The position numbers were made by a program, and so were the translations under genes. Positions 7,271-57,495 of a stretch of DNA of 64,000 nt are shown here, piece after piece. Below the pieces are notes generated by a model. That model made no database searches, had not been told where the DNA came from, and saw only the letters and a program-made list of their open reading frames with translations. Each line of letters begins with the position of its first letter. Within the stretch, counting starts at the first letter, position 1. Source of the DNA: Omphiscola glabra (lineage: Eukaryota; Mollusca; Gastropoda; Lymnaeidae); NCBI GenBank assembly GCA_964017045.1, contig OZ024808.1, positions 1,823,666 through 1,887,665 on the forward strand, written 5' to 3'.

Positions 7271-7613
7271 CAGTGTTTCCCAACCTGGCGGTTCAAGAAG
7301 GCATCCCGTGGGTGTGAGGAAAGGGGATTTAAGAAAAGAGGAGCTTTAAAATTATGATAGAAATGTTAATGTATTTTAAACATTGCTTCATTAATATTTT
7401 TATGAGGTGCAAGTTTAATTTTTATGTTCTACAGTTTAATTTCAATGTTCTACAGTTCTCTTTTCAATTAAATTTTTAAAAAGTCTCTTATTTCCAAATG
7501 TATCGGTACTTTTGTAGGATTTCTGAGACCTAGTAAAACAGTTTGTAGTGGGTGCCAGGCTAGTCAAATAATTCGAAGGGGGTGCAGAGTATAGAAAAGA
7601 TTGGGACACACTG
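7271..7613. mobile_element. hAT-like non-autonomous relic
   Basis: Left end CAGTGTTTCCCAACCTGG and right end whose complement is CAGTGTGTCCCAATCTTT form matching imperfect termini of the hAT style. No target duplication could be matched. Its right end abuts the younger MITE at 7620. A similar right end (GGTTTGGAACCACTG) is at 61258-61272. Confidence 0.5.
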
Positions 7614-7619
7614 GTCCAG

Positions 7620-7783
7620 CAGTGGCGTAGCGAGAGGGGGCAAGGGGGCATCATGCCCCGGGCGCTACTCACAAAGGGGCGCCAAATGGTATATTTTACA
7701 TATAATATTGTATGGTTTTCAAATGGGGGGCGCGCTAAAAAGGTATTGTGCCCCGGGCGCAAGTTAAGCTCGCTACGCCACTG
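7620..7783. mobile_element. hAT-type MITE with CAGTGGCGTAGCGAG termini
   Basis: 164-bp element with perfect 15-bp terminal inverted repeats (CAGTGGCGTAGCGAG / CTCGCTACGCCACTG) flanked by a perfect 8-bp duplication TGGTCCAG at 7612-7619 and 7784-7791. An 8-bp duplication is the hAT hallmark. Non-coding. A second copy is at 32925-33083. Confidence 0.9.
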
Positions 7784-7799
7784 TGGTCCAGACCATACC

Positions 7800-8095
7800 T
7801 GAGTCAATAGTAAGCTTAAAGGAGTTGGACTAATATAGTGTTGCTTAACAAGGGTGGAGTATGAAATGTCTAGTTTTAAACATCAGACTCAGAGGTAAAT
7901 TTTAAATGTTTTTCTCAGGGTGGGATATAGTCAAATTTATTTAACCTGTTACCTCAAGTTTCATGAGTTTATTAATATTAAGCCTCTATTTAAAAAAAAA
8001 AAAATTCTACTGAGATAAAGAATATGGCTTTTAAATTATTTATTTTATTGCCACTAAGGTTTAAGGTAGATTAAAATTCTAGCTTTTATCATTTT
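7800..8095. other. AT-rich sequence downstream of the micro-exon gene
   Basis: Non-coding on both strands. A second minus-strand AATAAA lies near 8040-8055 and could be an alternative poly(A) signal for the micro-exon gene. Confidence 0.35.
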
Positions 8096-8111: not shown

Positions 8112-8117
8112 TTTATT
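8112..8117 (-). promoter_or_regulatory. Polyadenylation signal AATAAA of the micro-exon gene
   Basis: Canonical hexamer 57 bp past the stop codon on the minus strand. Confidence 0.65.
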
Positions 8118-8173
8118 TGTAAAAATTTCTAATATCTAATGATAACTATTGGTAGGGCTAGCAAATCATATTT

Positions 8174-8211
8174 TTAAGAACTTTTTGGTAAATCGCTTCT
8201 TATATGAATGT
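8174..8211 (-). CDS. Micro-exon gene exon 9: C-terminus and stop
   Basis: Excellent acceptor (ATTCTTTTCCCACTTTTAG). Encodes DIHIRSDLPKSS followed by TAA at 8176-8174. The last intron (8284-8212) is only 73 bp. Confidence 0.7.
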
Positions 8212-11200
8212 CTAAAAGTGGGAAAAGAATGTATAAAAAAATTTCTACAAATGTAATGTAAGACCAGCAGACAACCATACTCACCATTCTTTTTTGCTGT
8301 AGTTAAATTTATGTAAATGGTTAGATATATATATATATATATATAGAAACATGATGTAGTAAGATAAGCGTGGGCATGGGTTAATGAAAAGACGAAGTAA
8401 AAACATAATTATATGGATTAATTATAGGACGTTGAAAATCTGAAACGTAGTAGAAGAAAAAGAATACTCCAAATTATTGATTTAATAGGAAAAGGAAGTG
8501 TATCTATGACTGAGATTTTCATCATCCTCAATAAAGGTAAAGAATTATAGATATTTTATGGCTTGAGGCATATTTGACAAAGCACCTGCTAAATCTGGAA
8601 GTTCTTTGACCAGCTTGTGCCAGGCTTTACTTTAACACCAATGATCCCAGCTTACTTATGTTGACCCCCTGATGATCTTATACCTCTATCTGCAAACCCC
8701 CTTTGAGATTATACTTCCTGCTTTTTTTTTTTTGTAAAGCCCTAACACACACACCCCAATTTTTGTTTTAAATGAAATCACATAATAGGAATATTTTTAA
8801 AAGACACATTGCAAAAGTAAACGCAAAAACAGACTTTACTTACTTGTCATTTGCACTAGACATAATATAGAAAAAAGGGGGGGGGGGTTGATAGAATAAA
8901 ATAAAGCCATTAACACAATCATCATGGTAGTATTGAAAAAACTTAACACTAGACTTAAGGTGTTTATAATTTTGTTGTGTTGAAGCATTTCTTGAAATAG
9001 TTCACAATTTTCTAACTATTGATTCTGTTGTGTCTCTTATTGATTGTGGTTCTAGATATATGAAGCAAGGATCAATGTACTTGATTTATTCCATTTCTTT
9101 CTAGTTATGAATATTTTCAAGTTGTCTTACTGTTTATGGTTTTCTTGAGGCCTAACTATTTATAAATGAAATCAAACACCTACTGAATTCACCTATTAGA
9201 TTAATTAAAATAAGCAGTAAAGCATTGTCTCGAGTATGATTACTAATTAGGCCAGTTTGCATTATGAAATCAGTTTTCTTGTACTTGAATTCAAGTTATT
9301 GAATGCTTAATTTTTTTTAAAAGCAAATCTGACATTTACCTGATATTTTTATTAGGCTTTTGAAAGGAAACTCATATTTAAGTTTAGTCTAACTTGGGAA
9401 TACTGAATATAAAACAAAAAGTTAATGAAGCATAACACATTAAGGGTTGTGATTAAAAAAAATTCAATATTTTTTTAAAACCAAACATTGAGAAGTGAGA
9501 AATTTACATAAATTGAAGAGAAGATTTATTTATATTAATGATGCAGATTTCCCTGGCAAGGAAAGGTTAGTGATATTATTATCACTGAAAAAATGTTAGC
9601 ATAATTCTGTGCTTCTGATTAAAAAAATTAAAAGCCAGTAGATTGGCGAAAAATGTTGTTGCTCTATGATGTAAAAATGAAGAACTTTTAAAAAGAAAAG
9701 AAAAAATTTAAAATGTAAAAACAATAACACAAAATATACTGACTTGTTGCATTCACTGAGGCACGCGAGGGGGAAAAACAATTTTTATAAGTCATTCAAA
9801 ATTTATTTCTTTAGAATTTATAGAATTATTTGGTTGTATTTCTCAAGGCTAACTTTCTATCACCATATAATCTTTAATTTATAGAAGAAAAAAAAAGGTA
9901 AGATTAACACACAAAAAAAGTAAGTTGATGACCTGTACTTTGAACTCCTAGCTATACTATTAGTGTTTTTAAAATACCCGGTAAAAGAAACAGAAAGTAA
10001 GAAAATTTTGATCTCAATGACCTGCGTATTTTAAAACCTTCAATTCAACAAGTGTACATAACGTGATGTCAAGAGATGTAGAAATTAGTGGTATACTTAA
10101 AAAACTCATTCAGTTTTATAACTTCGGCTTCTTTCCGTAATTTTATATATTAAGTTTCAAGGAAGAAAATCATTCTAAGTCAATTTTTGTCATTTCACCT
10201 GTGTCTGACTTTTGTCAGTGGCACTTGTCATGAAATCCATCTGGCATTTCAAGTGTCATGTTAGGCAAAGCAAAAAGTACATTGCCTATTTGAGTCGTTA
10301 CAACCTATTCAAATAATTTCATTTTCATGACGCACTGGTTTAACCCAGGGGTTGTACAACAATATTTTATAAAAATGATCAAGAAAAAAAGATTTGCATA
10401 CAACTATTTTATCTGCTTAAGTTAAGTAATGAGTTACTTACTCCACATCTTTGCTAATGAGGAAAAAGAGAAAAATGAAGGAACATGTCAGTAAAATGTC
10501 AAATAACCTTGTCAGTGTTGGCACTGACACCATTATTGGTGAGCATTTTCATATTTATTTAATGGGTTGTTTTGTTAAATAATTATAGAGGGGAGGACAT
10601 ATAAAAGGAAGCTTGGCATATAGAGTGGGCTGTTCATTTAGAGTAGGATAGACATATAGAGTGGGGTGTTCATATAGAGTAGGATAGACATATAGATTGG
10701 GCTGTTCATAATATAGAGTAGGATAGACATATAGAGTGGGGTGTACATTTAGAGTAGGATAGACATAGAGTGGGGTGTTCATATAGAGTAGGATATACAT
10801 ATAGAGTGGGATGTACATATAGAGTAGGATAGACATAGAGTGGGGTGTACATATAGAGTGGGATAGACATATAGAGTGGGGTGTACATATAGAGTGGGAT
10901 AGACATATAGAGTGGGATGTACATATAGAGTAGGATATACATATAGAGTGGGGTGTACATATAGAGTAGGATAGACATATAGAGTGGGGTGTACATATAG
11001 AGTAGGATAGACATATAGAGTGGGTTGTACATGTAGAGTAGGATAGACATATAGAGTGTGGTTTACATGTAGAATAGGATGGACATATAGAGTGGGGTGT
11101 ACATATAGAGTAGGATAAACTTATAGAGTGGAATAGATACCTGACGCCTGAACTTGTTTAAATCTTAAGTCCCCCAAAAAATGCTGACTCTAGTGTCATT

Positions 11201-14200
11201 AAGAGCTTTGTATCCCCTGGGATGTACATATAGAGTAGGATAGACATATAAAGTGGGGTGTACATATAGAGTAGGATAGACATATAGAGTGGGGTGTACA
11301 TATAGAGTAGGATAGACATATAGAGTGGGTTGTACATGTAGAGTAGGATAGACATATAGAGTGTGGTTTACATGTAGAATAGGATGGACATATAGAGTGG
11401 GGTGTACATATAGAGTAGGATAAACTTATAGAGTGGAATAGATACCTGACGCCTGAACTTGTTTAAATCTTAAGTCCCCCAAAAAATGCTGACTCTAGTG
11501 TCATTAAGAGCTTTGTATCCCCTGAATAAATGTTAGTATGGTCCATAAGACAAAATTTAATCTGAACAAATATTATTTAAAATACTAATATTCAAATAAG
11601 TAAAAAACGTAACAGCAATGATCAATTCAAGAAAAGACTCACCAGTTGTTTCTAAAGAATAAAGACAAATGCAGGGAACAAGTTAGAAGCAAATCTTAGT
11701 GTCAAGTCTCTCAGCATCAAGTACTGACATTAAGAGTTTTAACAAATATTTAACAAATGTGCAGACCAATTGAAAGCAATATTTATTTGAAGGGTCCAGG
11801 TTTTGGGCTCTTCAAATAGGGACCATGGATTCCTGTGGTTCTCAAATTCTCTCAGATTACCCCTTCAAGGATATGAGATGAAAATAGATCCATTCTCGAC
11901 AACAAAAACAACCACAATTTTATAATAGTTACCCAATAGTTGACCACATAATATTTGACTACATAATAGCTGCCCACATAATAGTTGACTATAATAGTTA
12001 TAATTATACACCCCCACCCCATTACTATTAAGTAATTATTTTTATGTTAGACATCTCTGACAGGGCTAGTTAGACACTTTTATAATGTAAAACTTTAAAA
12101 AGAAGCTAATAAAGTTACATAGATTGACTTACTCATTGCGGCTGTGAAGAAAAAAGAAGAATGAAAAGTAGAATCAATTAAAACAGACATAATGGACGTT
12201 CAACTTCAGCTGTCTGTCAAATTTTGTCATGTCTTAAAGTCTGTCTAGACCAGTGGTGGCCAGCTTCTGTCTAGACCAGTGGTGGCCAGCTTCTGTCTAG
12301 ACCAGTGATGGCCAGCCTCTGTCTAGACCAGTGGTGGCCAGCCTCTGTCTAGACCAGTGGTGGCCAGCCTCTGTCTAGACCAGTGGTGGCCAGCCTCTTC
12401 TTTTTTACTTGAGCCCCTTTTAGATATAATTTCTAAAGAGGAGTCTTTTAACTCCACACGACGTCTTACAGGTTAATTGTGTTCAGGAATTGCCTGGAGT
12501 GGCCATGGAGCCCTCGAGAAGCGCACACGGTGCACTGACTGGGAACCACTGGTCTGGACATTCTGATCTTATAGTTTTAACTGTCTGCTTTACATTTCAG
12601 TAGTGTAAGTCTTTATTTCAGTAGTTAAAGTCTTTATTTCACTAGTTAAAATCTTTATTTCAGTAGTTAAAATATTTATTTCACTAGTTAAAGTCTTTAT
12701 TTCCGTAAAGTCTTTATTTCACTAGTTAAAGTCTTTATTTCCGTAAAGTCTTTATTTCACTAGTTAAAGTCTTTATTTCACTAGTTAAAGTCTTTATTTC
12801 CGTAAAGTCTTTATTTCACTAGTTAAAGTCTTTATTTCCGTAAAGTCTTTATTTCACTAGTTAAAGTCTTTATTTCCGTAAAGTCTTTATTTCACTAGTT
12901 AAAGTCTTTATTTCAGTGTTTAAAGTCTTACAATTTGGCTTTTTTAAAAAAAATAACCTCTTATACTTAAGTACATATAAAATTAACAAACATTGTAAAA
13001 CAAATTTGTTTTGTCTGTGTGTTTCTAATTAGGCTCTGACCCAAACACACTCTGGTCTAGATGAGAACATTTCCTCATGGTCAGATGACAAGTCTTCCTG
13101 CAGGCTCTGACCCAAGCACACTCGGGTCTACATGGGAACATTTCCTCATGGCCAGATGACAAGCCTTCCTGCTGGCTGTGACCCAAACACACTCGGGTCT
13201 ACATGGGAACATTTCCTCATGGCCAGATGACAAGCCTTCCTGCTGGCTCTGACCCAAACACACTCGGGTCTACATGGGAACATTTCCTCATGGCCAGATG
13301 ACAAGCCTTCCTGCTGGCTCTGACCCAAGCACACACTGATATAGATGGAAACATTTCCTCATGGCCAGATGACAAGTCTTCCTGCACTCTCGGCACTCAC
13401 CACTTGTTAACATCCATTACCAGTGCCCTAACTGTACCATCACCACCATTAGGATATCAAAGGTGAGTTGTTTCTTTCACAACATATGAACATTTATTTT
13501 AGTGGAAGATTTTGTTTAAAGACAATCTGTAGAGTTATGAGTCACTTGTACACATTCCACTAGTAACAATCCCATATCTTGTACACATTTCACTAGTAAC
13601 TATCTCATATTTTGTACACATTTCACTAGTAATTATCCCCATCTATTGTACACATTTCACTAGTAACAATACCTACTCTTGTACACCTTTCTCGAGTACC
13701 TATCCCATCTCCTGTACACATTCCACTAGTAACAATCCTATCTCTTGTAGACATTCCACATGAACAAGTCCTTTTTCTTGTACAAATTCAACTTGTACCT
13801 ATCCTGTATCTTGTATGCAGTCCATATATACCTATCTCATCTATGGAAAACATTCACTTGTACCCAGCCTGACCCTTGTACACATTCCACTCACATGTAT
13901 CCATTCCCCATCAGCATATCCTGACCTATCTCACATTAGTGACTGTTTTTCTACCACCTTCTTTTATAAATTTTCTAAACCCCCCCCCCCCCCCCTTTTA
14001 CTCCTCTTACGCAGCACTGGTGAGACCTGTGTGACCTTTGAACAGATATTATTTGTTTCAAACTGTGTATGGTGGTGAATTTAATTCTAGAGTACCAAAT
14101 AATTCAACATCCTTTTTGATAATTTGATAAAACTATCCACCATTAAAAGTAAGAACAGAACATAAATAAAGATTGCAAGCAGAATAGGTCAAATTAACTT

Positions 14201-17200
14201 GGTGGGAACAAATAGCATTATTTCCCCTGAAAAAATATCATCATTCCCCCACAGATGTGCACGTGGACTGGTCATTTAAAAATATATATTACATAATTGC
14301 TCTTGTTACAGAGGCTAAAGCTATTGGTGATTAGAGCAAATGCCTATAGTTGCACTGTCTATGTCACTGAGGCATCTAGACCTAAAGCTATTGGTGATTA
14401 GAGCAAATGCCTATGGTTGCACTGTCTATGCCACTGAGGCATCTTTAGACCTAAAGCTATTGGTGATTAGAGCAAATGCCTATAGTTGCACTGTCTATGC
14501 CACTGAGGCATCTTTAGACCTAAAGCTATTGGTGATTAGAGCAAATGCCTATGGTTGCACTGTCTATGCCACTGAGGCATCTTTAGACCTAAAGCTGTTG
14601 GTGATTAGAGCCATTGCCTATGGTTGCACTGTCTATGCCACTGAGGCATCTTTAGACCTAAAGCTATTGGTGATTAGAGCCAATGCCTATGGTTGCACTG
14701 TCTATGCCACTGAGGCATCTTTAGATCTAAAGCTATTGGTGATTAGAGCAAATGCCTATGGTTGCACTGTCTATGTCACTGAGGCATCTTTAGACCTAAA
14801 GCTATTGGTGATTAGAGCCAATGCCTATGGTTGCACTGTCTATGCCACTGAGGCATCTTTAGACCTAAAGCTGTTGGTGATTAGAGCCAATGCCTATGGT
14901 TGCACTGTCTATGCCATTGAGGCATCTTTAGTCCTAAAGCTATTGGTGATTAGAGCCAATGCCTATGGTTGCACTGTCTATGTCACTGAGGCATCTTTAG
15001 ACCTAAAGCTGTTGGTGATTAGAGCCAATGCCTATGGTTGCACTGTCTATGCCACTGAGGCATCTTTAGACCTAAAGCTATTGGTGATTAGAGCCAATGC
15101 CTATGGTTGCACTGTCTATGTCACTGAGGCATCTTTAGACCTAAAGCTGTTGGTGATTAGAGCCAATGCCTATGGTTGCACTGTCTATGTCACTGAGGCA
15201 TCTTTAGACCTAAAGCTATTGGTGATTAGAGCCAATGCCTATGGTTGCACTGTCTATGTCACTGAGGCATCTTTAGACCTAAAGCTATTGGTGATTAGAG
15301 CCAATGCCTATGTTTGCACTGTCTATGCCACTGAGGCATCTTTAGACCTAAAGCTATTGGTGATTAGAGCCAATGCCTATGGTTGCACTGTCTATGTCAC
15401 TGAGGCATCTTTAGACCTAAAGCTATTGGTGATTAGAGCCAATGCCTATGGTTGCACTGTCTATGCCACTGAGGCATCTTTAGACCTAAAGCTATTGGTG
15501 ATTAGAGCCAATGCCTATGGTTGCACTGTCTATGTCACTGAGGCATCTTTAGACCTAAAGCTATTGGTGATTAGAGCAAATGCCTATGGTTGCACTGTCT
15601 ATGCCACTGAGGCATCTTTAGACCTAAAGCTATTGGTGATTAGAGCCAATGCCTATGGTTGCACTGTCTATGCCACTGAGGCATCTTTAGACCTAAAGCT
15701 ATTGGTGATTAGAGCCAATGCCTATGGTTGCACTGTCTATGCCACTGAGGCATCTTTAGACCTAAAGCTATTGGTGATTAGAGCCAATGCCTATGGATTG
15801 CACTGTCTATGTCACTGAGGCATCTTTAGACCTAAAGCTATTGGTGCAGAAAGGAAAATAGTATGGTCTTAGTGTTCACATCATTTCATATGTGTTAAGG
15901 GGATCATGATGTGTTCTATTGCTCTACTTGTGTCATTATTAAACTACCAGTGATTCTCATTCATGTAGTTTTGTGTGTCTGGCTTAAACTGTGGAGATCC
16001 AATAGTTCAACGCATAGCTTGAATAAGGCCATCTTAATCATAGTCAAAGTACTTATCTAAAGGGGAGATAGGATCATGGGGGGTGGCAGGTGTTGGGGGC
16101 CATGGGAGGGCAAGTGTTGGGGGCCATGAGAGGGCAAGTGTTGGAGGCCATGGGAGGGCAAGTGTTGGGGGCCATGGGAGGGCAAGTGTTGGGGGCTATG
16201 GGAGGGCAGGTGTTGGGGGCCATGGGAGGGCAAGTGTTGGGGGCCATGAGAGGGCAAGTGTTGGGGGCCATGGCAGGGCAAGTGTTGGGGGCCATGGGAG
16301 GGCAAGTGTTGGGGGCCATGAGAGGGCAAGTGTTGGGGGCCATGGGAGGGCAAGTGTTGGGGGCCATGAGAGGGCAAGTGTTGGGGGCCATGGGAATGGG
16401 AGGGCAAGTGTTGGGGGCCATGGGAATGGGAGGGCAAGTGTTGGGGGCCATGGGAGGGCAAGTGTTGGGGGCCATGGAAGGGCAAGTGTTGGGGGCCATG
16501 GGAGGGCAAGTGTTCAGGGCCATGAGAGAGCAAGTGTCGGGGGCCATGGGATTGCAAGTGTTGGGGGCCGTGGGAGGGCAAGTGTTGGGGGCCGTGGGAG
16601 GGCAAGTGTTGGGGGCCATGGAAGGGCAAGTGTTGGGGGCCGTGGGAGGGCAAGTGTTGGGGGCCGTGGGAGGGCAAGTGTCGGGGGCCGTGGGAGGGCA
16701 AGTGTTGGGGGCCGTGGGAGGGCAAGTGTTGGGGGCCGTGGGAGGGCAAGTGTTGGGGGCCATGGAAGGGCAAGTGTTGGGGGCCATGCAGTTTCACCAG
16801 CTAATCTATTCACAAAACAATGAAAAAAAGGTTTATTAAATAATGTATGAATTCTCTTACTGGCTTCAGCTTCAGCAGCCACTCCACCAGCAATCGGGTT
16901 AGCAGCATCAGCATTAGCGCCAGCAGCGGCTGCAATCAAACAATAACTAGATATATATAATATATAACAAATGACAATGAAGCATTAAATAAATGTTTCA
17001 ACTACAGCAGTTTTTCTGGACTGTGTTATGTCTGTCTGGACTGTGTTATGTCTGTCTGGCCTGTGTCATGTCTTTCTGGACTGTGTCATGTCTGTCTGGC
17101 CTGTGTCATGTCTGTCTGGCCTGTGTCATGTCTGTCTGGACTGTGTCATGTCTGTCTGGCCTGTGTCATGTCTGTCTGGCCTGTGTCATGTCTGTCTGGA

Positions 17201-20200
17201 CTGTGACATGTCTGTCTGGCCTGTGTCATGTCTGTCTGGCCTGTGTCATGTCTGTCTGGCCTGTGTCATGTCTTTCTGGACTGTGTCTTGTCTGTCTGGA
17301 CTGTGTCATGTCTGTCTGGACTGTGTCATGTCTGTCTGGACTGTTTCATGTCTGTCTGTACTGTGTCATGTCTGTCTGGACTGTGTCATGTCTGTCTGGC
17401 CTGTGTCATGTCTGTCTGGCCTGTGTCATGTCTGTCTGGACTGTGTCATGTCTGTCTGGACTGTTTCATGTCTGTCTGGACTGTTTCTTTGTCCATCCCA
17501 CTTTTTACCAAACATCTCAGCTCACTTGACATTCTATGTTGTGATACTAATTTGTTGATAGTCATCCTCAAAGACCAACACATGCTAGTTATGTTGATGG
17601 CCATCCTCAAAGACCAACACATGCTAGTTACTCATCAAAGGCCAACACAGGCTAGTTACACATCAAAGACCAACACATGCTAGTTACACATCAAAGACCA
17701 ACACATGCTAGTTACACATCAAAGACCAACACATGCTAGTTACACATCAAAGACCAACACATGCTAGTTACACATCAAAGACCAACACATGCTAGTTACA
17801 CATCAAAGACCAACACATGGTAGTTACACATCAAAGACCAACACATGCTAGTTACACATCAAAGACAAACACATGCTAGTTACACATCAAAGACCAACAC
17901 ATGCTAGTTACACATCAAAGACCAACACATGCTAGTTACACACCAAAGACCAACACATGGTAGTTACACATCAAAGACAAACACATGCTAGTTACACATC
18001 AAAGACCAACACATGGTAGTTACACATCAAAGACCAACACATGCTAGTTACACATCAAAGAAATCAGTAAGCTATAGACAAGAAATCACATTGATTTTCT
18101 TTGAAATATTCCAGAAGTCTTAAAAAATAACTTAATATGATTTACTTGGCTTCGTTGTTTCTACTTGTTGATCAGCATCTCCTGCTGTTTCTGGGGAATG
18201 TATATAGAAATGATAGAATCTATATAGAAATTATAGAATATATATAGAAATGATAAAATCTATATAGAGATGATAGAATGTATGTAGCAATGATAGAATG
18301 TATATAGAAATGATAGAATCTGTATAGAAATGTAGAGTCCATATAGAACTGATAGAATCTATATAGAAATGATAGAATGAATATAGAAATGATAGAATCT
18401 ATATAGAAATTATAGAATATATATAGAGAAATTATAAAATCTATACAGAGACTATAGAATGTATGTAGAAATGATAGAATCTATCTTGAAAAAATAGAAT
18501 CTATATAGATACAATAGAATTTATATAGAAGTGATAGAATGTATATAGAAATTATAGAATCTATATAGAAATAATAAAAACTATACAGAGATGATAGAAT
18601 CTATATAGAAATGATAGAATCTATATAGAAATGATAAAATCTATATAGAGATGATAGAATGTATGTAGAAATGATAGAATGTATATAGAAATGATAGAAT
18701 ATGTATAGAAATGTAGAATCCATATAGAACTGATAGAATCTATATAGAAATGATAGAATGTATATAGAAATGATAGAATCTATATAGAAATTGTAGGATT
18801 CATATAGAAATATAATTTGTGTAGAAATGATAGAATCTATATAGAAATGAAAGTCTATATAGAAATTATAGAATCTATATAGAAATGATAAAGTCTATAT
18901 AGAAATAATAGAATCTATATAGAAATGATAGAATCTATATAGAAATGATAGTATTGTGTGTAATTTTTTGTCCTTTATCTATTCTTTACTACACCTTACT
19001 GTGTGTCTCATCAAACTGTGTCCCACCTAGCTTTTTGTTTAATGTTTTGGTCTAATGTGTGTGTCTCATCAAACTGTGTCCCACCTAGCTTTTTGTTTAA
19101 CGTTTTGGTCTAATGTGTGTGTCTCATCAAACTGTGTCCCACCTAGCTTTTTGTTTAATGTTTTGGTCTAATTTGTGTGTCCCATCAAACTGTGTCCCAC
19201 CTAGCTTTTTGTTTAATGTTTTGGTCTAATGTGTGTGTCTCATCAAACTGTGTCCCACCTAGCTTTTTGTTTAATGTTTTGGTGTAATGTGTGTCTCATC
19301 AAACTGTGTCCCATCTAGCTCTTTGTTTAATGTTTCGGTCTAATGTGTGTGTCTCATCAAACTGTGTCCCATCTAGCATTTTGTTTAATGTTTAGGTCTA
19401 ATGTGTGTGTCTCATCAAACTGTGACCCATCTAGCTTTTTGTTTAATGTTGAGGTCTAATGTGTGTGTATCATCAAACTGTGTACCATCTTTCTTTTTGT
19501 CTGTAGTTACATAAATAACGTATTAAAGTTGTGCCCCTAATATAGTTACATAAATAACGTATCAAAGTTGTGCCCTTAATATAGTTACCCCAGTAACATC
19601 AAAGTTGTGCCCCTAATGTAGTTACATAAATAACATTTTAAATGTGTGTCTTTAGTACAGTTAGAACAATAACATATCAAAGTTGTGCCCCTAGTATAGT
19701 TACACCAATAATTTGTCAAAGGTGTGCCCTTACCATAGTTGTAGTTACATAAATTGCATCAAAGTTGGGCCCCAACTGTAGTTGTAGTTACATAAATAAC
19801 ATCAAAGTTGGGCCCCTACTGTAGTTGATGTTACATAAATAGCATAAAAGTTGGGCCCCTACTGTAGTTGTAGTTACATAAATAACACCAAATCAGGGCC
19901 CCTTCTGTAGTTGTAGTTACATAAATAACATATCAAAGTTGGGCCCCTTCTGTAGTTGTAGTTAGATAAATAACATATCAAAATTGGGCCCCTTCTGTAG
20001 TTGTATTTACATAAATAACATATCAAAGTTGGGCCCCTTCTGTAGTTGTAGTTACAGAAATAACATATCAAAGTTGGGCCCCTACTGTAGTTGTAGTTAC
20101 ATAAATAACATATCAAAGTTGGGCCCCTTCTGTAGTTGTAGTTACATAAATAACATATCAAAGTTGGGCCCCTACTGTAGTTGCGCCATGTTTGCACTAT

Positions 20201-20613
20201 CTTTGGCGTTACACCAAGAAGATGCAACAGTTTGTTTCTCGTCTGCCATCTTTGCACTATCTTTGGCGTTACACCAAGAAGATGCAACAGTTTGTTTCTC
20301 GTCTGCCATCTTTGCACTATCTTTGGCGTTACACCAAGACGATGCAACAGTTTGTTTCTCGCCTGCCATGTTTTTTTTTTTGCCTCGGTTGTGGAGAAAG
20401 CTCTGTAACGAATCTTTTTAAACGAATCTACTTACCTGAGAAAGAAGGGGAGGGGGACAAATAGGGGTTTGGGGGGTCTGTGGTTCCTAGAACTATGTTT
20501 ATTAAATGGACATAGATTGTAACATTGCTTTCAAACTTTGAGTACTAACCTTGAATTTTCCAACTGACCCCCACCAGCAGAACCAGCACGATAACAGACC
20601 TTCGCAAAGCCAT
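8174..20613 (-). CDS. Micro-exon gene encoding a small secreted protein (nine coding exons, ~89 aa)
   Basis: Reconstructed here by reading splice consensus and phase. Coding exons in order: 20613-20550, 18190-18146, 16929-16861, 12141-12133, 11651-11643, 10453-10442, 8855-8844, 8296-8285, 8211-8174. Lengths are 64, 45, 69, 9, 9, 12, 12, 12 and 38 nt, summing to 270 nt (89 codons plus TAA). Every one of the eight introns is phase 1, so each internal exon is a 1-1 cassette. The protein has a signal peptide, an Ala/Thr/Asp/Glu-rich low-complexity middle, and a short Lys-containing tail. No family is recognised. The architecture (signal peptide plus many tiny symmetric exons) is that of the micro-exon genes known from schistosomes; no homology is implied. 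Secretion is inferred from exon 1. A stop and AATAAA close the gene. Other skipped or unseen micro-exons are possible. The chain is by-eye and lacks RNA evidence. Confidence 0.7.
8285..8296 (-). CDS. Micro-exon 8 (12 nt)
   Basis: Sequence CAAAAAAGAATG with donor GTGAGTATGG and acceptor AAATTTAACTACAG, the weakest acceptor of the series. Encodes Thr-Lys-Lys-Asn. Phase 1-1. If it were skipped the frame would still hold. Confidence 0.55.
8320..8345. repeat. (AT)n microsatellite in intron 7 of the micro-exon gene
   Basis: Uninterrupted TA dinucleotides between exons 7 and 8. Confidence 0.8.
8844..8855 (-). CDS. Micro-exon 7 (12 nt)
   Basis: Sequence TGCAAATGACAA between acceptor CTATATTATGTCTAG (preceded by CCTTTTTT) and donor GTAAGTAAAG. 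Encodes Met-Gln-Met-Thr. Phase 1-1. Confidence 0.7.
10442..10453 (-). CDS. Micro-exon 6 (12 nt)
   Basis: Sequence CAAAGATGTGGA between acceptor TCTCTTTTTCCTCATTAG and donor GTAAGTAACT. Encodes Ala-Lys-Met-Trp. Phase 1-1. Confidence 0.7.
10610..11523 (+). repeat. ~36-bp minisatellite with a ~300-bp internal duplication (intron 5)
   Basis: Units built on ACATATAGAGTAGGATAGAC and ATATAGAGTGGGGTG. A non-repeat tail (ATACCTGACGCCTGAACTTG onward) appears at 11146 and again 295 bp later at 11441, so a block of array plus flank was tandemly duplicated as one piece. Confidence 0.9.
11643..11651 (-). CDS. Micro-exon 5 (9 nt)
   Basis: Sequence AAACAACTG between acceptor GTCTTTATTCTTTAG and donor GTGAGTCTTT. 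Encodes Lys-Thr-Thr. Phase 1-1. Confidence 0.65.
12133..12141 (-). CDS. Micro-exon 4 (9 nt)
   Basis: Sequence CCGCAATGA between a long pyrimidine tract ending TTTTTTCTTCACAG and donor GTAAGTCAAT. Encodes Thr-Ala-Met with the carried base. Phase 1-1. Confidence 0.7.
   Translation of the reverse strand, partial: PQ
12236..12406 (+). repeat. 26-bp minisatellite seeded from a hAT element end
   Basis: About six units containing CTGTCTAGAC followed by CAGTGGTGGCCAG. The unit is exactly the target duplication plus the left terminus of the adjacent element at 12381. Confidence 0.85.
12381..12551. mobile_element. hAT-type MITE (171 bp)
   Basis: Left terminus CAGTGGTGGCCAG, right terminus complement CAGTGGTTCCCAG. 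8-bp flanks GTCTAGAC (12373-12380) and GTCTGGAC (12552-12559), 7/8 identical. Non-coding. Lies in intron 3 of the micro-exon gene. Confidence 0.7.
12600..12925 (+). repeat. ~20-bp minisatellite (AGTTAAAGTCTTTATTTCAC)
   Basis: About 16 units, alternating full AGTTAAAGTCTTTATTTC and shortened CGTAAAGTCTTTATTTC versions, giving a higher-order ~38-bp period. Intron 3 of the micro-exon gene. Confidence 0.85.
13030..13385 (+). repeat. 65-bp minisatellite, ~5.5 copies
   Basis: Units with GGCTCTGACCCAAACACACT and CATTTCCTCATGGCCAGATG. Followed at 13386-13470 by unique sequence ending TCAAAG|GTGAGTTG, a plus-strand donor-like site without a convincing acceptor; not called as an exon. Confidence 0.85.
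13545..13870 (+). repeat. Degenerate ~38-bp repeat (CTTGTACACATTTCACTAGT)
   Basis: Eight to nine diverged copies, older-looking than the neighbouring arrays. Confidence 0.75.
14310..15846 (+). repeat. 69-bp minisatellite, ~22 copies, one frame fully open
   Basis: Unit contains CCTAAAGCTATTGGTGATTA and GGTTGCACTGTCTATGCCAC. Because 69 is divisible by three and one frame lacks stops, 14340-15818 (+) reads as a 492-codon frame of 23-residue units (core LDLKLLVIRANAYGCTVY). The first copy follows a splice-acceptor-like CTCTTGTTACAG. It lies antisense in intron 3 of the micro-exon gene. I treat it as an array, not a gene. Confidence 0.85.
16076..16795 (+). repeat. 24-bp G-rich minisatellite, ~29 copies
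   Basis: Unit core GGGGGCCATGGGAGGGCAAG. Two units carry an extra GGAATG. Each unit has G-runs of five, three and three, so any two neighbours could form a G-quadruplex on the plus strand. All frames stay open because the period is divisible by three; these are not genes. Intron 3 of the micro-exon gene. Confidence 0.9.
16861..16929 (-). CDS. Micro-exon gene exon 3 (69 nt), Ala-rich
   Basis: Acceptor TTGTTTGATTGCAG, donor GTAAGAG. Encodes 23 residues, eleven of them Ala: TAAGANADAANP, then IAGGVAAEAEA. Low-complexity Ala/Gly/Asn/Asp/Glu. Phase 1 at both ends. Confidence 0.75.
17021..17495 (+). repeat. 20-bp minisatellite (CTGTGTCATGTCTGTCTGGC), ~24 copies
   Basis: Main variation is GGAC versus GGCC at the unit junction. 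Intron 2 of the micro-exon gene. Confidence 0.9.
17566..18062 (+). repeat. 28-bp minisatellite, ~17 copies
   Basis: Unit core CATCAAAGACCAACACATGC followed by TAGTTACA. Fills the rest of intron 2 almost up to exon 2 of the micro-exon gene. Confidence 0.9.
18146..18190 (-). CDS. Micro-exon gene exon 2 (45 nt)
   Basis: Acceptor CATTCCCCAG, donor GTAAATC. With the base carried over from exon 1 it encodes ETAGDADQQVETTKP: acidic and Thr-rich. Phase 1 at both ends. Confidence 0.7.
18196..18955 (+). repeat. ~20-bp minisatellite (ATGATAGAATCTATATAGAA), ~36 copies
   Basis: Begins 5 bp from exon 2 of the micro-exon gene, so the acceptor of intron 1 is bordered directly by the array. Confidence 0.9.
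18985..19490 (+). repeat. ~58-bp minisatellite, ~8 copies
   Basis: Units with GTGTCTCATCAAACTGTGTC and TAGCTTTTTGTTTAATGTTT. Intron 1 of the micro-exon gene. Confidence 0.9.
19505..20185 (+). repeat. ~45-bp minisatellite, ~15 copies
   Basis: Units with TACATAAATAACATATCAAA and GTTGGGCCCCTTCTGTAGTT; copies become more uniform towards 20185. Intron 1 of the micro-exon gene. Confidence 0.9.
20186..20371 (+). repeat. 60-bp tandem repeat, 3 copies
   Basis: Units with TTTGCACTATCTTTGGCGTT and GATGCAACAGTTTGTTTCTC; open frames here are artefacts of the period. Confidence 0.9.
20426..20456 (-). promoter_or_regulatory. Candidate recursive splice site (zero-length exon) in intron 1
   Basis: On the minus strand a long pyrimidine tract (TCCCCCTCCCCTTCTTTCTC) is followed by AG immediately joined to GTAAGTAGAT, so acceptor and donor abut at 20436|20435. 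This is the ratchet-point layout known from insect long introns. Sits 114 bp into intron 1 of the micro-exon gene. Confidence 0.45.
20550..20613 (-). CDS. Micro-exon gene exon 1: start codon and signal peptide
   Basis: ATG at 20613-20611 in a strong context (G at -3, G at +4). Encodes an n-region MALRR, a hydrophobic core SVIVLVLLVGVSW, then KIQ. It ends one base into a codon at donor G|GTTAGT. The cleavage site is not obvious; a cut after the W/K region is likely. About 50 bp upstream there is no in-frame alternative ATG that I can see. Confidence 0.75.
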
Positions 20614-20741
20614 GTCCGTCTCGCTTGCAGTCTTAGTTCACGACAACTCGATTGTAGAGAAAACAGACTTGTGTAAAGGGTTGGTTATTGCGACCTGTGA
20701 GCCAATATACACAAATATGGTAGCCAAGGCCGGGAGACTTG

Positions 20742-20749
20742 TGACGTCA
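20742..20749. promoter_or_regulatory. Full CRE palindrome TGACGTCA upstream of the micro-exon gene
   Basis: Perfect CREB/ATF consensus about 130 bp upstream of the ATG, with a TGTATATT-like sequence between (near 20705-20712). Promoter role is inferred from position only. Confidence 0.35.
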
Positions 20750-24606: not shown

Positions 24607-26921
24607 CACCCTGGATGAACGCCTTGATTCCATAACACTGAACAACCAGGACGCGGAAGCAGCGTGGACCACACTTCGTGAGACGGTGTATAACACAGCC
24701 GATGAGCGCCTCGGACTCTCTACACAGGGATTGGTTTGATGAAAACAACACAGCAATCCAAATGCTACTTGAGCAAAAACGTCGGGCGTACAAAGCCCTC
24801 CATGATGACCCAATGTCAGCAGCAAAGACAGCTGCACTGAGGAACATCCGCAGCAAGGTCCAATTACAACTGCGCCAGATGCAAGACTCCTGGTTGAATG
24901 CGAAAGCTGATGAGATTCAAGGCTTTGCAGACAAAAAAGACATGAAAAACTTCTACAGTGGCCTGAGAGAAATCTATGGAGTTACCACCTCAGGCTTTTC
25001 CCCTCTCCTTAGTGCAGACGGTTCTACCCTCATCACAGACAAGGAAAAAATCTTGGAAAGATGGGCGGAACACTTTAAAAATGTGCTGAATACGCCTTCC
25101 ATCATTAATGATGAGGCCATTGAAAGACTGCCCCGGGTCCCAATGAACAAGTCACTGGACGCTGTCCCAACTTCGGTCGAGATACAGACAGCAATCCGTC
25201 AAATGTCCAATGGTAAAGTACCTGGCTCCGACATGATTCCTGCCGAAATCTACAAAGAGGGTGGACCAGCGTTGACGGATAAGCTATTGCGTCTATTCCA
25301 GATCATCTGGCAGACGGAAACTGTACCACAGGACCTCAAAGATGCCTCCATTATCCACCTGTACAAACACAAAGGAAACCGCCAGGCCTGCGGCAAGATC
25401 TTGGCCCGAGCCCTTCTGAACCGCCTAAATGCACATCTGGAGCGAGGTCTCCTACCCGAAAGTCAATGTGGTTTCCGAAAGGAACGAGGAACTATCGATA
25501 TGGTGTTTGCTGCCAGGCAGCTCCAAGAGAAATGTCAGGAGCAAAACATGGACCTATATTCCACATTTATTGACCTGAATAAGGCTTTTGACAGGGTCAA
25601 TAGAGATGGCCTGTGGAAAATCATGAAAAAGTACGGATGCCCAGAAAAATTCACCACCATCATCCGTCAGCTGCATGATGGCATGATGGCCAGAGTGCAG
25701 GACAACGGTCAGTCATCTCAAGCATTCCCTGTCACAAATGGTGTGAAGCAGGGCTGTGTCCTGGCTCCCACGCTCTTCAGTATTATGTATTCTGCAATGC
25801 TGTCTGATGCGTTCAGGGACTCCACCACGGGCTTGCCAATCCGTTTCCGCACCGATGGATCGGTCTTCAACCTAAAGAGGCTTCAAGCTAAAACAAAGGT
25901 CAAACATACCACCATCAACGAGCTTCTGTTTGCGGACGATTATGCCCTCAATGCTGACTCTGAGGCTGCTATGCAGCAAAGCGTTGATATCTTTTCTGAG
26001 GCCTGCAACACCTTGGACTAACAATCAACGCGAAGAAGACTGAGGTATTCTATCAGCCAGCTCCCAGTAGGCCCTACGCTGAACCCAACATCATCATCAG
26101 CGGACAGCGTCTTAACGCGGTGGATAAATTTACTTACTTGGGCAGCACCCTCTCCAGATCTGTCATCATTGATGATGAAATGAATGCCAGACTTGCAAAA
26201 GCTAGTGCCATATTTGGCCGGCTCCGCAGCACTGTTTGGGACAGGAGAGGTATCAGACGGGAAACGAAGATCAAGGTATACAGCGCAGCAGTCCTCTCGA
26301 CATTGCTCTACGGGTGTGAAACGTGGACAGTCTACCAGCGTCACGCTAAAAAACTGAACCATTTTCACACAACCAGCCTCAGGAAACTCCTCGGCATCAG
26401 GTGGCAAGACAAAGTTCCTGACACAGAGGTTCTCGCTAGAGCGAACCTACCTAGTATCTTCACCACCCTGATGCAGTATCAACTCCGTTGGATGGGACAC
26501 GTTGCCCGTATGGAAGATCACCGGCTCCCTAAACAAATATTCTATGGTGAGCTCACGACAGGCAAGCGCTCCCAAGGAGGTCCAAAAAAACGTTACAAAG
26601 ACTCATTGAAAGTGGCACTAAAGGCCTTCAGCATCGACACTACTAAATGGGAGCAGACCGCCCAGGACAGAGTCAGGTGGAGATCAGTGGTCAAGATAGG
26701 GGCTAAATCTTATGAAGCCAGTAGGATGGCCACCATTGAGACACGCAGGCAAGCCCGAAAGAACATTATTAAAGTCACGACTGCACCAACTATCCCCTGC
26801 CCGCGGTGCCACAGACTATTCCGAGCACGTATAGGATTGGCAAGCCACCTACGAACCCACCGTAACCCACCCCCCTAACCGGATGACTGGATGGTCCTAG
26901 TCGTTTTGACGGACGAACAAC
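24607..26921 (+). mobile_element. 5'-truncated non-LTR retrotransposon with reverse transcriptase
   Basis: Starts inside ORF2 (TLDERLDSITLNNQD). Frame breaks near 24715 and 26021 divide it into pieces; the main open piece is 24678-26021, continued by 26022-26875. Reverse-transcriptase landmarks: GKVPGSDMIPAEIYKEGG, CGFRKERGTIDMVFAARQ, FIDLNKAFDRVNRDGLW, NGVKQGCVLAPTLFS and the catalytic box LLFADDYALN. The C-terminal region has LSTLLYGCETW, LRWMGHVARM and a CPRCHRLF...H..TH finger. Compared with the usual layout, a block of about 12 residues that normally holds HRGISLL is missing between RQAC and GKILA, so this RT is defective. Perfect 12-bp duplications flank it. Relatives at 131, 5262 and 35300. 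Confidence 0.95.
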
Positions 26922-32924: not shown

Positions 32925-33083
32925 CTGTGGCGTAGCAAGGGGGGGGCATCATGCCCCGGTGCTACTCACAAAGGGGCGCCAAATGGTATATTTTACATAT
33001 AATATTGTATGGTTTTCGAAGTGGGAGGGGGGCGCTAAAAAGGTATTGTGCCCCGGGCGCGAATTAAGCTCGCTACGCCAGTG
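32925..33083. mobile_element. hAT-type MITE, second copy of the 7620 family
   Basis: Termini CTGTGGCGTAGCAAG and GCTCGCTACGCCAGTG; interior matches 7620-7783 closely (CTACTCACAAAGGGGCGCCA, AATATTGTATGGTTTTC). Perfect 8-bp duplication TGCATTAT at 32917-32924 and 33084-33091. Confidence 0.9.
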
Positions 33084-33142
33084 TGCATTATTCGCGAGTG
33101 TGGGTTTTGGTCTTTTGTATGTGTGCGTGTAGGCATGTGTGC

Positions 33143-33410
33143 CAGGGCCGTCTTTACAACAGTGGGAGGGGGGGCAGGGCAAAGCAATGCACCGAGGTCC
33201 CCTTTCCCTCTACATACTCGGGGCTGTGCGAAGGAGTGGGCGAGAGAGCTTATCGCCCCTGGCGTCGACATCAGGGGCGCCAATATGTCTTTAGATAATG
33301 AATGAATTGAACGATGAAATCTCATGCATCACACATGAAGGAGCCGAAAAATCGTCACAGTAGTCCGCCCTGGGCGCCTCTTTTCCTCTGCACGGTCCTG
33401 CTTAATATTC
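33143..33410. mobile_element. Possible degenerate hAT-like element
   Basis: Starts CAGGGCCGTCTTTACA (compare 29383) and ends CACGGTCCTG; no matching target duplication. The 54-bp array begins directly at its right end. Confidence 0.35.
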
Positions 33411-35700: not shown

Positions 35701-36703
35701 TAAAACGTAAACACACATCACGTGGTGTTTCAATCAATCTATTATTTGTTTAATGTACGCAGACGTGGTGATTCAATCAATTTATTTTTTGTTTAATGTA
35801 CGCAACATTGGGATTTTAATTCACATTAAATTTAAAGGAAGGGTAAACATTTCATTGCCTCTGCTATATGTCATGAACAGATTTTAAAAAAAAATGCATA
35901 TATAACATTTTGTAAAATAGGTATATTTGATCAGAATGACATCACAGAACTGATATTTTGACTTCGTGGCAGTAATCAGATCAATGATGTCGTCTCTTAG
36001 TCTGCACTGTGTTATGTAGGTTAATCAATTGTTGAGATTGAGTTTCAGTCTAAATATGGGTTCAAAATCATTAAAACTATCGACTCCTTAAAAAATTTTC
36101 AAAATAAATATTTCCGAAATGTTTATCAATTCTTTGAGAAGAACTTTAATAAAGACAATGAAGTCGTTTTATTATCTTTGTTCTTATAGCTGAAGTTAAC
36201 AAAATATAAGAGTTTCTCAGATTCTAGTTCGGGCGAAGTATGTCAGGAAAATTCAATAACCATCTTAACCACAAAACAAAAAGATTAGGGGGGAAAGGGG
36301 GTGGGGCGGGGGGGGGGGGGTTTGATAATGAAATTTTCATCACATTCACATTACTTTTTCATAATAAAAAGTCAATTGCATTCTCAATCTAAACTTTAAA
36401 AAAAAAATTATTAACGCCTGATGATCTTGAGTTAAATATACCAAAAGAATTGGTAATATCTTTTTTTAATCCTATATAATTCGTGCATTTCATAGGATGG
36501 CACTGAAAAATGATGGGTCAAAAAAAAAAAAAAAAAAAAGATTTACAAGCTAACACGTCGTTAGTGTTACTAGTGGCTCGGCAACTAGCGAAACCGCAAG
36601 TCTTTTGAATACCGGATGTTATTTTGCCCATCTTGTGCAACAATACTTTCAAAAGATGGATTCAACGAGGTTAGCTGAAGAAACTCAGACAAAAAAATCT
36701 GAT
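35701..36703. other. AT-rich non-coding spacer
   Basis: Homopolymers near 36300 (G) and 36520-36538 (A). No gene seen. Confidence 0.4.
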
Positions 36704-37688
36704 TGCTTCCCGGTCCGTTGGCTAAGATCAGGATGTAGTGTCTGTTCTTAACCCTCAGGGACACCAAACCTGGTGGAATGAACATGATTACCCGCTTGAT
36801 TCTTCAGCCTGGGTCGGGACGATCAGTTAGAAAAGAACAAATGAGAGACTCCCAACTCCCCAAGTCTGGTCGCTTCTCGGCCCGTTGGCTAAGATCAGGA
36901 TGTAGTGTCTGTTCTTAACCCTTAGGGACACCAAACCTGGTGGAATGAACATGATTACCCGCTTGATTCTTCAGCCTGGGTCGGGACAATCAGTTAGAAA
37001 CGAACAAATAAGAGACCCCCAACTCCCCAAGTCTGGTCGCTTCTCGGCCTGTTGGCTAAGATCAGGATGTAGTGTCTGTTCTTAACCCTTAGGGACACCA
37101 AACCTGGTGGAATGAACATGATTACCCGCTTGATTCTTCAGCCTGGGTCGGGACGATCAGTTAGAAACGAACAAATGAGAGACCCCCAACTCCCCAAGTC
37201 TGGTCGCTTCTCGGCCCGTTGGCTAAGGTCAGGATGTAGTGTCTGTTCTTAACCCTTAGGGACACCAAACCTGGTGGAATGAACATGATTACCCGCTTGA
37301 TTCTTCAGCCTGGGTCGGGACGATCAGTTAGAAAAGAACAAATGAGAGACCCCCAACTCCCCAAGTCTGGTCGCTTCTCGGCCCGTTGGCTAAGGTCAGG
37401 ATGTAGTGTCTTTTCTTAACCCTTAGGGACACCAAACCTGGTGGAATGAACATGATTACCCGCTTGATTCTTCATCCTGGGTCTGGACGATCAGTTAGAA
37501 AATAACAAATGAGAGACCCCCAACTCCCCAAGTCTGTTCGCTTCTCGGCCCGTTGGCTAAGGTCAGGATGTAGTGTCTGTTCTTAACCCTTAGGGACACC
37601 AAACCTGGTGGAATGAACATGATTACCCGCTTGATTCTTCAGCCTGGGTCGGGATAATCGGTAAGAAAAGAACAAATGAGAGACCCGT
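36704..37688 (+). repeat. 167-bp tandem repeats beginning like U2 snRNA, 6 copies
   Basis: Copy starts at 36704, 36871, 37038, 37205, 37372 and 37539, exactly 167 apart. The first ~48 bp of each (CGCTTCTCGGCCCGTTGGCT, AAGATCAGGATGTAGTGTCT, GTTCTTA) closely follow the 5' end of U2 snRNA, including the CTTCTCGGCC and GGCTAAGATCA blocks. The branch-site pairing element, GTAGTA in U2, reads GTAGTG here. The remaining ~119 bp do not resemble U2. So these are U2-derived or U2-headed repeats and not intact U2 genes. Confidence 0.75.
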
Positions 37689-47706: not shown

Positions 47707-48240
47707 CTCTTCTTCTTCTTATGCCTTTTTACCCCGTCTGGGGCATAGGCCGTCCACAAGAATTTTCCACTCATCCCGGTCCTGTGCTTTCCTTTCCAAT
47801 TGCTTCCAGTTGTATCCCATATTTTGCGTGTCTGTCTCTAGTTCACGTCTCCATGTATTCTTAGGTCTTCCTCTCTTTCTTTTTCCCTGTGGATTCCATG
47901 TTAGACATTGTCTGATGGTGCTATCTGGGGGTTTTCTCAGAGTATGCCCAATCCACCTCCATCTTTTCTTTATGATGTCTTCATCAACGGGCACCTGGTA
48001 TGTCCTTTCTAATAGATCTTTGTTGGTGATGGTATTTGGCCATTTGATATTAAGGATCTTTCTAAGGCATGTGTTTATGAATGTCTGCACTTTCTGTGTA
48101 ATGCTCGCTGATGTTTTCCACGTTTCTGCTCCATAAAGTAGGACTGTTTTGACATTTGTATTAAAGATTCTGACTTTGGTTTGAAGTTTCAGCTGCTTCG
48201 ACTCCCATATTTTCTTTAATAACACAAATGCTGATCTAGC
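47707..48240 (-). mobile_element. 5'-truncated LINE inside a minisatellite
   Basis: Minus-strand frame 48225-47719 (168 codons) reads VRIFNTNVKTVLLYGAETWK, NTCLRKILNIKWPNTITNKD, RWRWIGHTLRKPP, NPQGKRKRGRPKNTWRRELE, AQDRDEWKILVDGLCPRRGK then stop. This is the conserved RT tail of a non-LTR element different from the 24.6-kb family. The 3' end carries an (AAG)n-type tail. Open and little decayed, so probably a recent insertion. Confidence 0.9.
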
Positions 48241-48590
48241 TAATAATATAATAATGTTTACTAATATAATAATGTTTACTAATATAATAATGTTTACTAA
48301 TATAATAATTTTTACTAATATAATAATGTTTACTAATATAATAATTTTTACTAATATAATGTTTACTAATATATGTTTACTAATATAATAATGTTTACTA
48401 ATATAATAATGTTTACTAATATAATAATGTTTACTAATATAATAATGTTTACTAATATAATAATTTTTACTAATATAATAATGTTTACTAATATATGTTT
48501 ACTAATATAATAATGTTTCCTAATATAATAATGTTTACTAATATAATAATGTTTACTAATATAATAATGTTTACTATTCATGTTTACTAT
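48241..48590 (+). repeat. 18-bp minisatellite, right part
   Basis: Continuation of 47577-47706. Confidence 0.95.
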
Positions 48591-57235: not shown

Positions 57236-57246
57236 TGGCGTCCACT

Positions 57247-57495
57247 TATAAACTAAGTCTATAATGTCTTAGTCTATAATGTCTTAGTCTATAATGTCTT
57301 AGTCTATAATGTCTTAGTCTATAATGTCTTAGTCTATAAGGTATATTTTAAAGAAAACGTCCTAATAAATCAGTGGCTTAGTCTATAGGGAGACTTAATC
57401 TACAGGGAGGCTTGGTCTATATGGGAGGCTTAGTCTACAGGGAGGCTTGGTCTATATGGGAGGCTTAGTCTACAGGGAGGCTTAGTCTATATATA
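57247..57495 (+). repeat. Minisatellite, right part (AGTCTATAATGTCTT; AGTCTACAGGGAGGCTT)
   Basis: Six 15-16-bp units, a unique piece, then 17-18-bp units like the left part. Confidence 0.9.

Follow-up and report, generated by a model that had tools for sequence, protein, structure and literature searches.

The 64,000-nucleotide (nt) stretch of Omphiscola glabra DNA analyzed here (the window: contig OZ024808.1 of assembly GCA_964017045.1, positions 1,823,666 to 1,887,665, numbered below from its first letter) carries on its minus strand, at 8174–20613, a candidate micro-exon gene composed of a signal-peptide exon, two exons of intermediate length, six micro-exons of 9–12 nt, and a terminal exon. 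Its ten exons encode 93 amino acids (aa), with the frame open from the ATG at 20613 to a TAA at 8176–8174. The initial annotation of this locus had described nine exons, five micro-exons, and ~89 aa. Its signal-peptide exon, its internal exons of 45, 69, 9, 9, and 12 nt, its stop codon, and its AATAAA (starting at 8117) were all located, and the exon count was revised: four 12-nt candidates are present rather than three (10453–10442, 9755–9744, 8855–8844, and 8296–8285), and omission of any one of them gives the earlier 89 aa. The gene model and its flanking signals are as follows.

20742..20749, minus strand: TGACGTCA motif, sole copy in the window; candidate promoter element
20550..20613, minus strand: exon 1, 64 coding nt, ATG and predicted signal peptide MALRRSVIVLVLLVGVSWKIQ; donor gttagt weak by matrix (0.3 bits), phase 1
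18146..18190, minus strand: exon 2, 45 nt, phase 1-1, acidic segment; donor gtaaat 1.0 bits
16861..16929, minus strand: exon 3, 69 nt, phase 1-1, Ala-rich segment AAGANADAANPIAGGVAAEAEA; acceptor 1.8 bits
12133..12141, minus strand: micro-exon 4, 9 nt (CCGCAATGA); acceptor 11.2, donor 4.9 bits
11643..11651, minus strand: micro-exon 5, 9 nt (AAACAACTG); acceptor 4.7, donor 4.8 bits
10442..10453, minus strand: micro-exon 6, 12 nt (CAAAGATGTGGA); acceptor 7.9, donor 4.9 bits
9744..9755, minus strand: micro-exon 7, 12 nt (TGAATGCAACAA); good acceptor (7.6 bits), weak donor gtcagt (1.5 bits)
8844..8855, minus strand: micro-exon 8, 12 nt (TGCAAATGACAA); acceptor 2.8, donor 4.9 bits
8285..8296, minus strand: micro-exon 9, 12 nt (CAAAAAAGAATG); good donor (4.8 bits), poor acceptor (0.0 bits)
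8174..8211, minus strand: terminal exon, 38 coding nt, TAA at 8176–8174; acceptor 6.5 bits
8112..8117, minus strand: AATAAA poly(A) signal, 56 nt separating it from the TAA

The exons are separated by nine introns of 2359, 1216, 4719, 481, 1189, 686, 888, 547, and 73 nt. All nine are in phase 1, and the length of every internal exon (8/8) is divisible by three. The start codon of exon 1 lies in the context GACATGG, and the encoded segment displays a hydrophobic core in profile; the (−3,−1) rule permits cleavage after residues 15, 17, 25, or 27, and cleavage of this predicted signal peptide after Ser17, preferred by eye, is possible. Upstream, a TATA-like gtatatt near 20710, recognized by eye, accompanies the TGACGTCA motif, which we take to be cyclic AMP response element-like; together they are suggestive, and only suggestive, of a possible promoter. 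At the other end of the gene, retention of the 73-nt last intron would extend the frame of micro-exon 9 to a TGA at 8168–8166 and give a different basic tail.

Splice sites were scored with generic animal matrices taken from general knowledge rather than fitted to Omphiscola glabra. The pyrimidine-rich acceptor and consensus donor that the initial annotation had ascribed to each exon are present at exons 4, 5, and 6 and largely at exon 8; weak sites occur at three donors (exons 1, 2, and 7) and two acceptors (exons 3 and 9). Micro-exon 4 carries the top combined score anywhere in the window. With cut-offs chosen in advance of exon scoring (≥4 bits for donor and acceptor alike), the entire 64 kb contains, on both strands, only four micro-exon-like sites: exons 4, 5, and 6 and one plus-strand site of 4 nt. 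When the gene region was simulated under the same cut-offs (n = 200), the mean was 0.30 sites and the maximum 3, reaching the observed 3; with lengths restricted to multiples of three, the mean fell to 0.10 and the maximum to 2, against the same 3 observed.

Counts by combined score, made in the sense direction of the gene and confined to multiples of three open in phase 1, reveal an excess. Five sites (exons 4–8) score at least 7.5, against simulated means of 0.61 (order-2) and 0.83 (order-4), with 0/400 simulations reaching five in either model; at a score of at least 9, four sites stand against means of 0.20 and 0.26, again unreached in 400 simulations of each model. At least 12 is scored by two sites, against means of 0.00 and 0.03, and one of the 400 order-4 simulations reached two. 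The 4-kb half of the gene that holds the micro-exons contains five sites at 7.5 or more (0.22 and 0.30 simulated), and the remaining sequence, ~116 kb over both strands, contains five as well. When any length from 3 to 30 nt is admitted in the sense direction, six sites reach 7.5, of which five are multiples of three and the sixth is a 4-nt site at 20435. Exon 9 falls below this threshold.

A chain search that started at the exon 1 donor, with exon length (3–200 nt) and phase both left free, recovered micro-exons 4–8 (five of the six) at an exon cost of 15, exons 4–7 at a cost of 17, and exons 4–9 plus two extra segments at a cost of 13; exon 9 was chosen only in this most lenient chain. Controls comprised 60 simulations and 14 real segments cut from the window (12.55 kb, half-overlapping), with the antisense strand of the gene included. 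None of the 14 real segments reached the chain score of the gene at any of the three costs, and at costs 15 and 17 none of the 60 simulations did.

The two longer internal exons were assessed by composition within a set of 25 symmetric candidates, some overlapping (42–120 nt, phase-1-open, both strands, combined score ≥4.5). Exons 2 and 3 are the only two of these that lie inside the gene in the sense direction. Exon 3 ranks first of the 25 by coding-like composition, with an RNY (purine, any base, pyrimidine) value of 0.77 against at most 0.38 in the others and a GC content of 0.59, and exon 2 ranks 22nd, the weakest coding support in the model. Therefore, exon 3 is regarded as good and exon 2 as uncertain.

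Taken together, the gene model, a micro-exon architecture headed by a signal-peptide exon, has good support. The reading we favor, with a probability of about 0.58, is a real minus-strand protein-coding gene whose secreted product tolerates exon skipping and is likely made as a mixture of variants. That poor composition of exon 2 counts against this reading, as do several other points. The 7.5 threshold was chosen after the exon scores were known, as was the 4.5 threshold for symmetric candidates. Donors of exons 1, 2, and 7 (0.3, 1.0, and 1.5 bits) and acceptors of exons 3 and 9 (1.8 and 0.0 bits) are weak; exons 2 and 3, which have weak sites, were left out by the chain search, and a spurious 4-nt step at 20435–20432 appeared at every cost. 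At cost 13, 8/60 simulations matched the score of the gene. Relaxed thresholds also erode the excess: donor ≥4 with acceptor ≥0 gives 6 sites against a simulated mean of 2.5 (maximum 10), donor ≥3 with acceptor ≥0 gives 8 against 6.8 (no excess), donor ≥1.4 with acceptor ≥5 gives 3 against 1.5, and donor ≥1.4 with acceptor ≥2.5 gives 5 against 5.8, all five observed sites being multiples of three. No homologue was found: in a search of 5.8 billion proteins, none of five word-sharing candidates matched the 93-aa protein at E ≤ 1, Pfam contains no family that it matches, and the PDB returned a single match (E 0.36) taken as chance.

The relaxed counts, the lack of a homologue for the joined protein, and the fact that the sites were originally picked by eye speak for a reading in which exon 1, perhaps with exon 3, belongs to a real secreted-protein gene with other downstream exons, the micro-exons being chance pairs of intronic splice sites. 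We consider this quite improbable, given that 0/400 simulations attain the observed number of sites, that the chain score is reached by none of the 60 simulations at costs 15 and 17 and by none of the 14 control segments, and that five of the six sense-direction sites of any length at 7.5 or more are divisible by three. The micro-exon cluster exceeds chance expectation at stringent scores and does not do so in raw counts at loose thresholds. A different objection accepts the gene and questions its variants: the micro-exons may be used constitutively, giving one protein of 89–93 aa without combinatorial forms, with symmetric phase-1 exons a by-product of exon gain. This reading is in keeping with the high scores of the sites flanking exons 4, 5, and 6, since constitutive exons need strong sites, and with the general prevalence of symmetric phase-1 exons in secreted proteins. 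The sites are uneven, however, and the exon 7 donor (1.5 bits) and exon 9 acceptor (0.0 bits) favor partial inclusion of some exons, which leaves exclusively constitutive use rather unlikely. The gene model is credible and goes beyond what a chance pattern would offer, although it retains real weaknesses.

In the favored model of a secreted, skipping-tolerant product, exon 1 would supply the signal peptide, exons 2 and 3 an acidic, Ala-rich segment, and the six micro-exons together with the terminal exon a basic tail. The calculated net charge is −6 for the exon 2–3 segment and +4 for the tail, and the protein contains no cysteine. An acidic spacer ahead of a basic tail is reminiscent of peptide precursors, by analogy only. 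Because the introns are all in phase 1 and the internal exons are multiples of three, any internal exon can be skipped without loss of frame: all 256 subsets of internal exons (256/256) remain open to the same stop, with products of 33–93 aa, which bears out the earlier proposal that any subset could be omitted. The codon formed at a phase-1 junction begins with the last base of the preceding exon, which is here always A or G, so no stop codon arises at any junction. Splicing may thus include or omit any internal exon while leaving the signal peptide and the C-terminal end unchanged, and the likely outcome would be a mixture of secreted forms with basic tails that vary by cassettes of 3–4 residues. 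The analysis shows the anatomy, the open frame, and the above-chance micro-exon cluster; transcription, secretion, exon skipping, and any biological role are inferred.

This architecture was compared with two published systems, flatworm micro-exon genes (MEGs) and aphid bicycle genes. Flatworm MEGs comprise ten to twenty short exons of 6–81 nt, mostly multiples of three, with introns up to 5 kb, a signal peptide, and Lys towards the C-terminus (PMC10526429). The present gene shares with those of Schistosoma, Echinococcus, and Hymenolepis a start that is here a predicted signal peptide, tiny exons mostly divisible by three, a layout that would allow frame-neutral skipping, and Lys towards the C-terminus, as well as introns extending to nearly 5 kb, the longest in the middle (PMC10526429, PMC7653826). 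It differs in its micro-exon length (9–12 nt versus mostly 15 in MEGs) and in its first intron of 2359 nt, whereas MEG introns are short at the ends (PMC10526429). The criteria used for Hymenolepis define MEGs by at least 7 exons, by half of the exons being <70 nt and divisible by three, and by runs of four such exons (PMC7653826). Our model has ten exons, of which 8/10 are short and divisible by three (6/8 without the weak exons 2 and 9), exon 3 falling barely below the limit at 69 nt, and these form a run of eight, or of five if exons 4–8 alone are counted; the model fits this definition. Under a stricter description, ~80% of the coding region lies in symmetric exons of 6–36 nt (PMC5825161); here such exons contribute only 66 of 282 coding nt (23%), and the gene falls outside it. 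No similarity to a described MEG family was found in the protein collection (E ≤ 1) or in Pfam, a weak test because MEG proteins have few common motifs besides the signal peptide (PMC10526429). MEGs appear confined to platyhelminths (PMC4350168), and their products in schistosomes include short peptides with amphipathic helices, of which several are cationic (PMC5825161). On paper, the gene appears to resemble a MEG in structure; MEG membership is not claimed.

The bicycle genes of aphids, whose CYC motifs contain cysteines, offer another point of reference. They encode secreted, fast-evolving proteins through many small internal exons of one phase, averaging ~17 exons, and nearly all their internal exons start at codon position 2, a property named exon phase 2 (PMC9168663). 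All eight internal exons here likewise start at codon position 2, which is intron phase 1 in the usual naming. Phase was considered as a difference between the two and rejected, since PMC9168663 counts exon phase by the starting codon position, which is the same here. The differences are exon number (ten versus an average of ~17) and the CYC motifs (PMC9168663), which are absent from the cysteine-free 93-aa protein. The common phase is a second structural parallel and not evidence of kinship. In vertebrates, SCPP genes such as those of caseins and amelogenins also place small symmetric, often skipped exons after a signal-peptide exon, but in phase 0 and usually with exons above 20 nt.

Tandem repeats occupy 60% of the gene, reaching 90%, 81%, and 72% of introns 1–3, compared with 33% elsewhere in the window and 24% of the interval from exon 4 to the end; the micro-exons thus occupy the repeat-poorer part of an otherwise repeat-packed gene. 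One tandem array ends 5 nt ahead of exon 2. Within intron 1, at 20436/20435 on the minus strand, ttctttctcag directly abuts gtaag, a zero-length exon in the form of a recursive splice site. Intron 3 contains a 69-bp minisatellite (14315–15846; 22 copies, 97% matches). A 495-aa open frame on its opposite strand is probably a consequence of a unit length divisible by three. A 305-bp tandem duplication in intron 5 (10913–11524) has copies 99% identical, so that it either arose very recently or is an artefact of assembly. Recent duplication of the micro-exons themselves was rejected: among 15 pairs of exons 4–9 with 120-nt flanks compared with shuffles, the lowest values (1/100 shuffles at or above for E4–E6, 3/100 each for E4–E7 and E7–E8, and 6/100 for E5–E8) are not convincing over 15 tests.

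A tblastn search for paralogues in the window returned the exons of the gene itself and matches at E ≥ 3. Rfam at gathering scores and ARAGORN found nothing across the whole window, and no title or abstract on a molluscan micro-exon gene appeared among the literature matches listed, from a coverage that leaves most subscription journals outside.

The window also contains retroelements. A long interspersed nuclear element (LINE) reverse transcriptase at 24642–26878 on the plus strand (Pfam RVT_1, E 4.3e-26) occupies two overlapping frames, 24642–26021 and 26000–26878. Among the best 120 of 2808 matches to the first frame, the best named are from fish (70% and 67%) and amphioxus (68%), the tapeworms Spirometra and Sparganum account for 45 of 52 species-named rows (52–61% identity), and gastropods for two (Arion 59%, Nucella 54%). 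A broken element at 55863–57252 (minus strand), presumably RTE-like, encodes a protein at 56560–57252 without a Pfam match. In the best 120 of 629 matches to this protein, the three best species-named are Biomphalaria (60%), Aplysia (66%), and Biomphalaria (60%), followed by shrimps, sea urchins, a tubeworm, and a mussel, with flatworms in none of the ten species-named rows. A tree of 22 rows, built from the window copy, all 10 species-named rows, and 11 of the unnamed rows among these 120, leaves the RTE-like copy unplaced, its nearest named row by path being the tubeworm Ridgeia. As retroelements cross phyla and databases are uneven, such matches are weak indicators of phylum either way. A reading in which the sequence comes from a flatworm and the gene is an ordinary flatworm MEG would suit the architecture and the tapeworm rows but is very unlikely: against it stand the flatworm-free RTE-like rows, the fish at the head of the named LINE matches, the movement of LINEs between phyla, the unplaced RTE-like copy, and the lack of any protein match to the gene product at E ≤ 1. 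The named matches are split among phyla and do not bear out the labels "snail-type" and "independent" that the initial annotation attached to the gene; its micro-exon architecture was upheld as a gene model.

Other elements in the window include a second LINE fragment at 47719–48498 on the minus strand (DUF6451, E 6.2e-16) and two similar minus-strand copies of an unnamed dispersed element at 7445–7882 and 32952–33209, recognized by eye from translations. At 36698–37686 on the plus strand, a 167-bp tandem repeat (5.9 copies) bears in its units a piece of U2 small nuclear RNA, ~48 nt from its 5′ end. Rfam matches U2 six times there (E 2.5e-06 to 0.0078), each time under the gathering score. It looks like an array of a U2-headed short interspersed nuclear element (SINE) or satellite; a literature search on U2-derived SINEs gave nothing useful.

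A further interpretation goes beyond the favored gene model. The locus could be a micro-exon gene that arose independently of those in flatworms and aphids, in a mollusc or other lophotrochozoan. An invariant signal peptide and an acidic, Ala-rich spacer would be joined to a basic tail of six optional cassettes, perhaps yielding a combinatorial membrane-active or defence peptide, and the lengths of intronic minisatellites could tune inclusion. Six optional cassettes allow 64 tails, or 256 products when exons 2 and 3 also vary. We regard this interpretation as doubtful. In flatworms and aphids, genes built of frame-neutral micro-exons make fast-changing secreted proteins. If the gene is another such case, in a mollusc or relative, this rare architecture would have arisen independently once more. 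That would suggest a general route to secreted-protein diversity rather than a speciality of parasites, and would imply that standard annotation, which aligns 9-nt exons poorly, hides more such genes.

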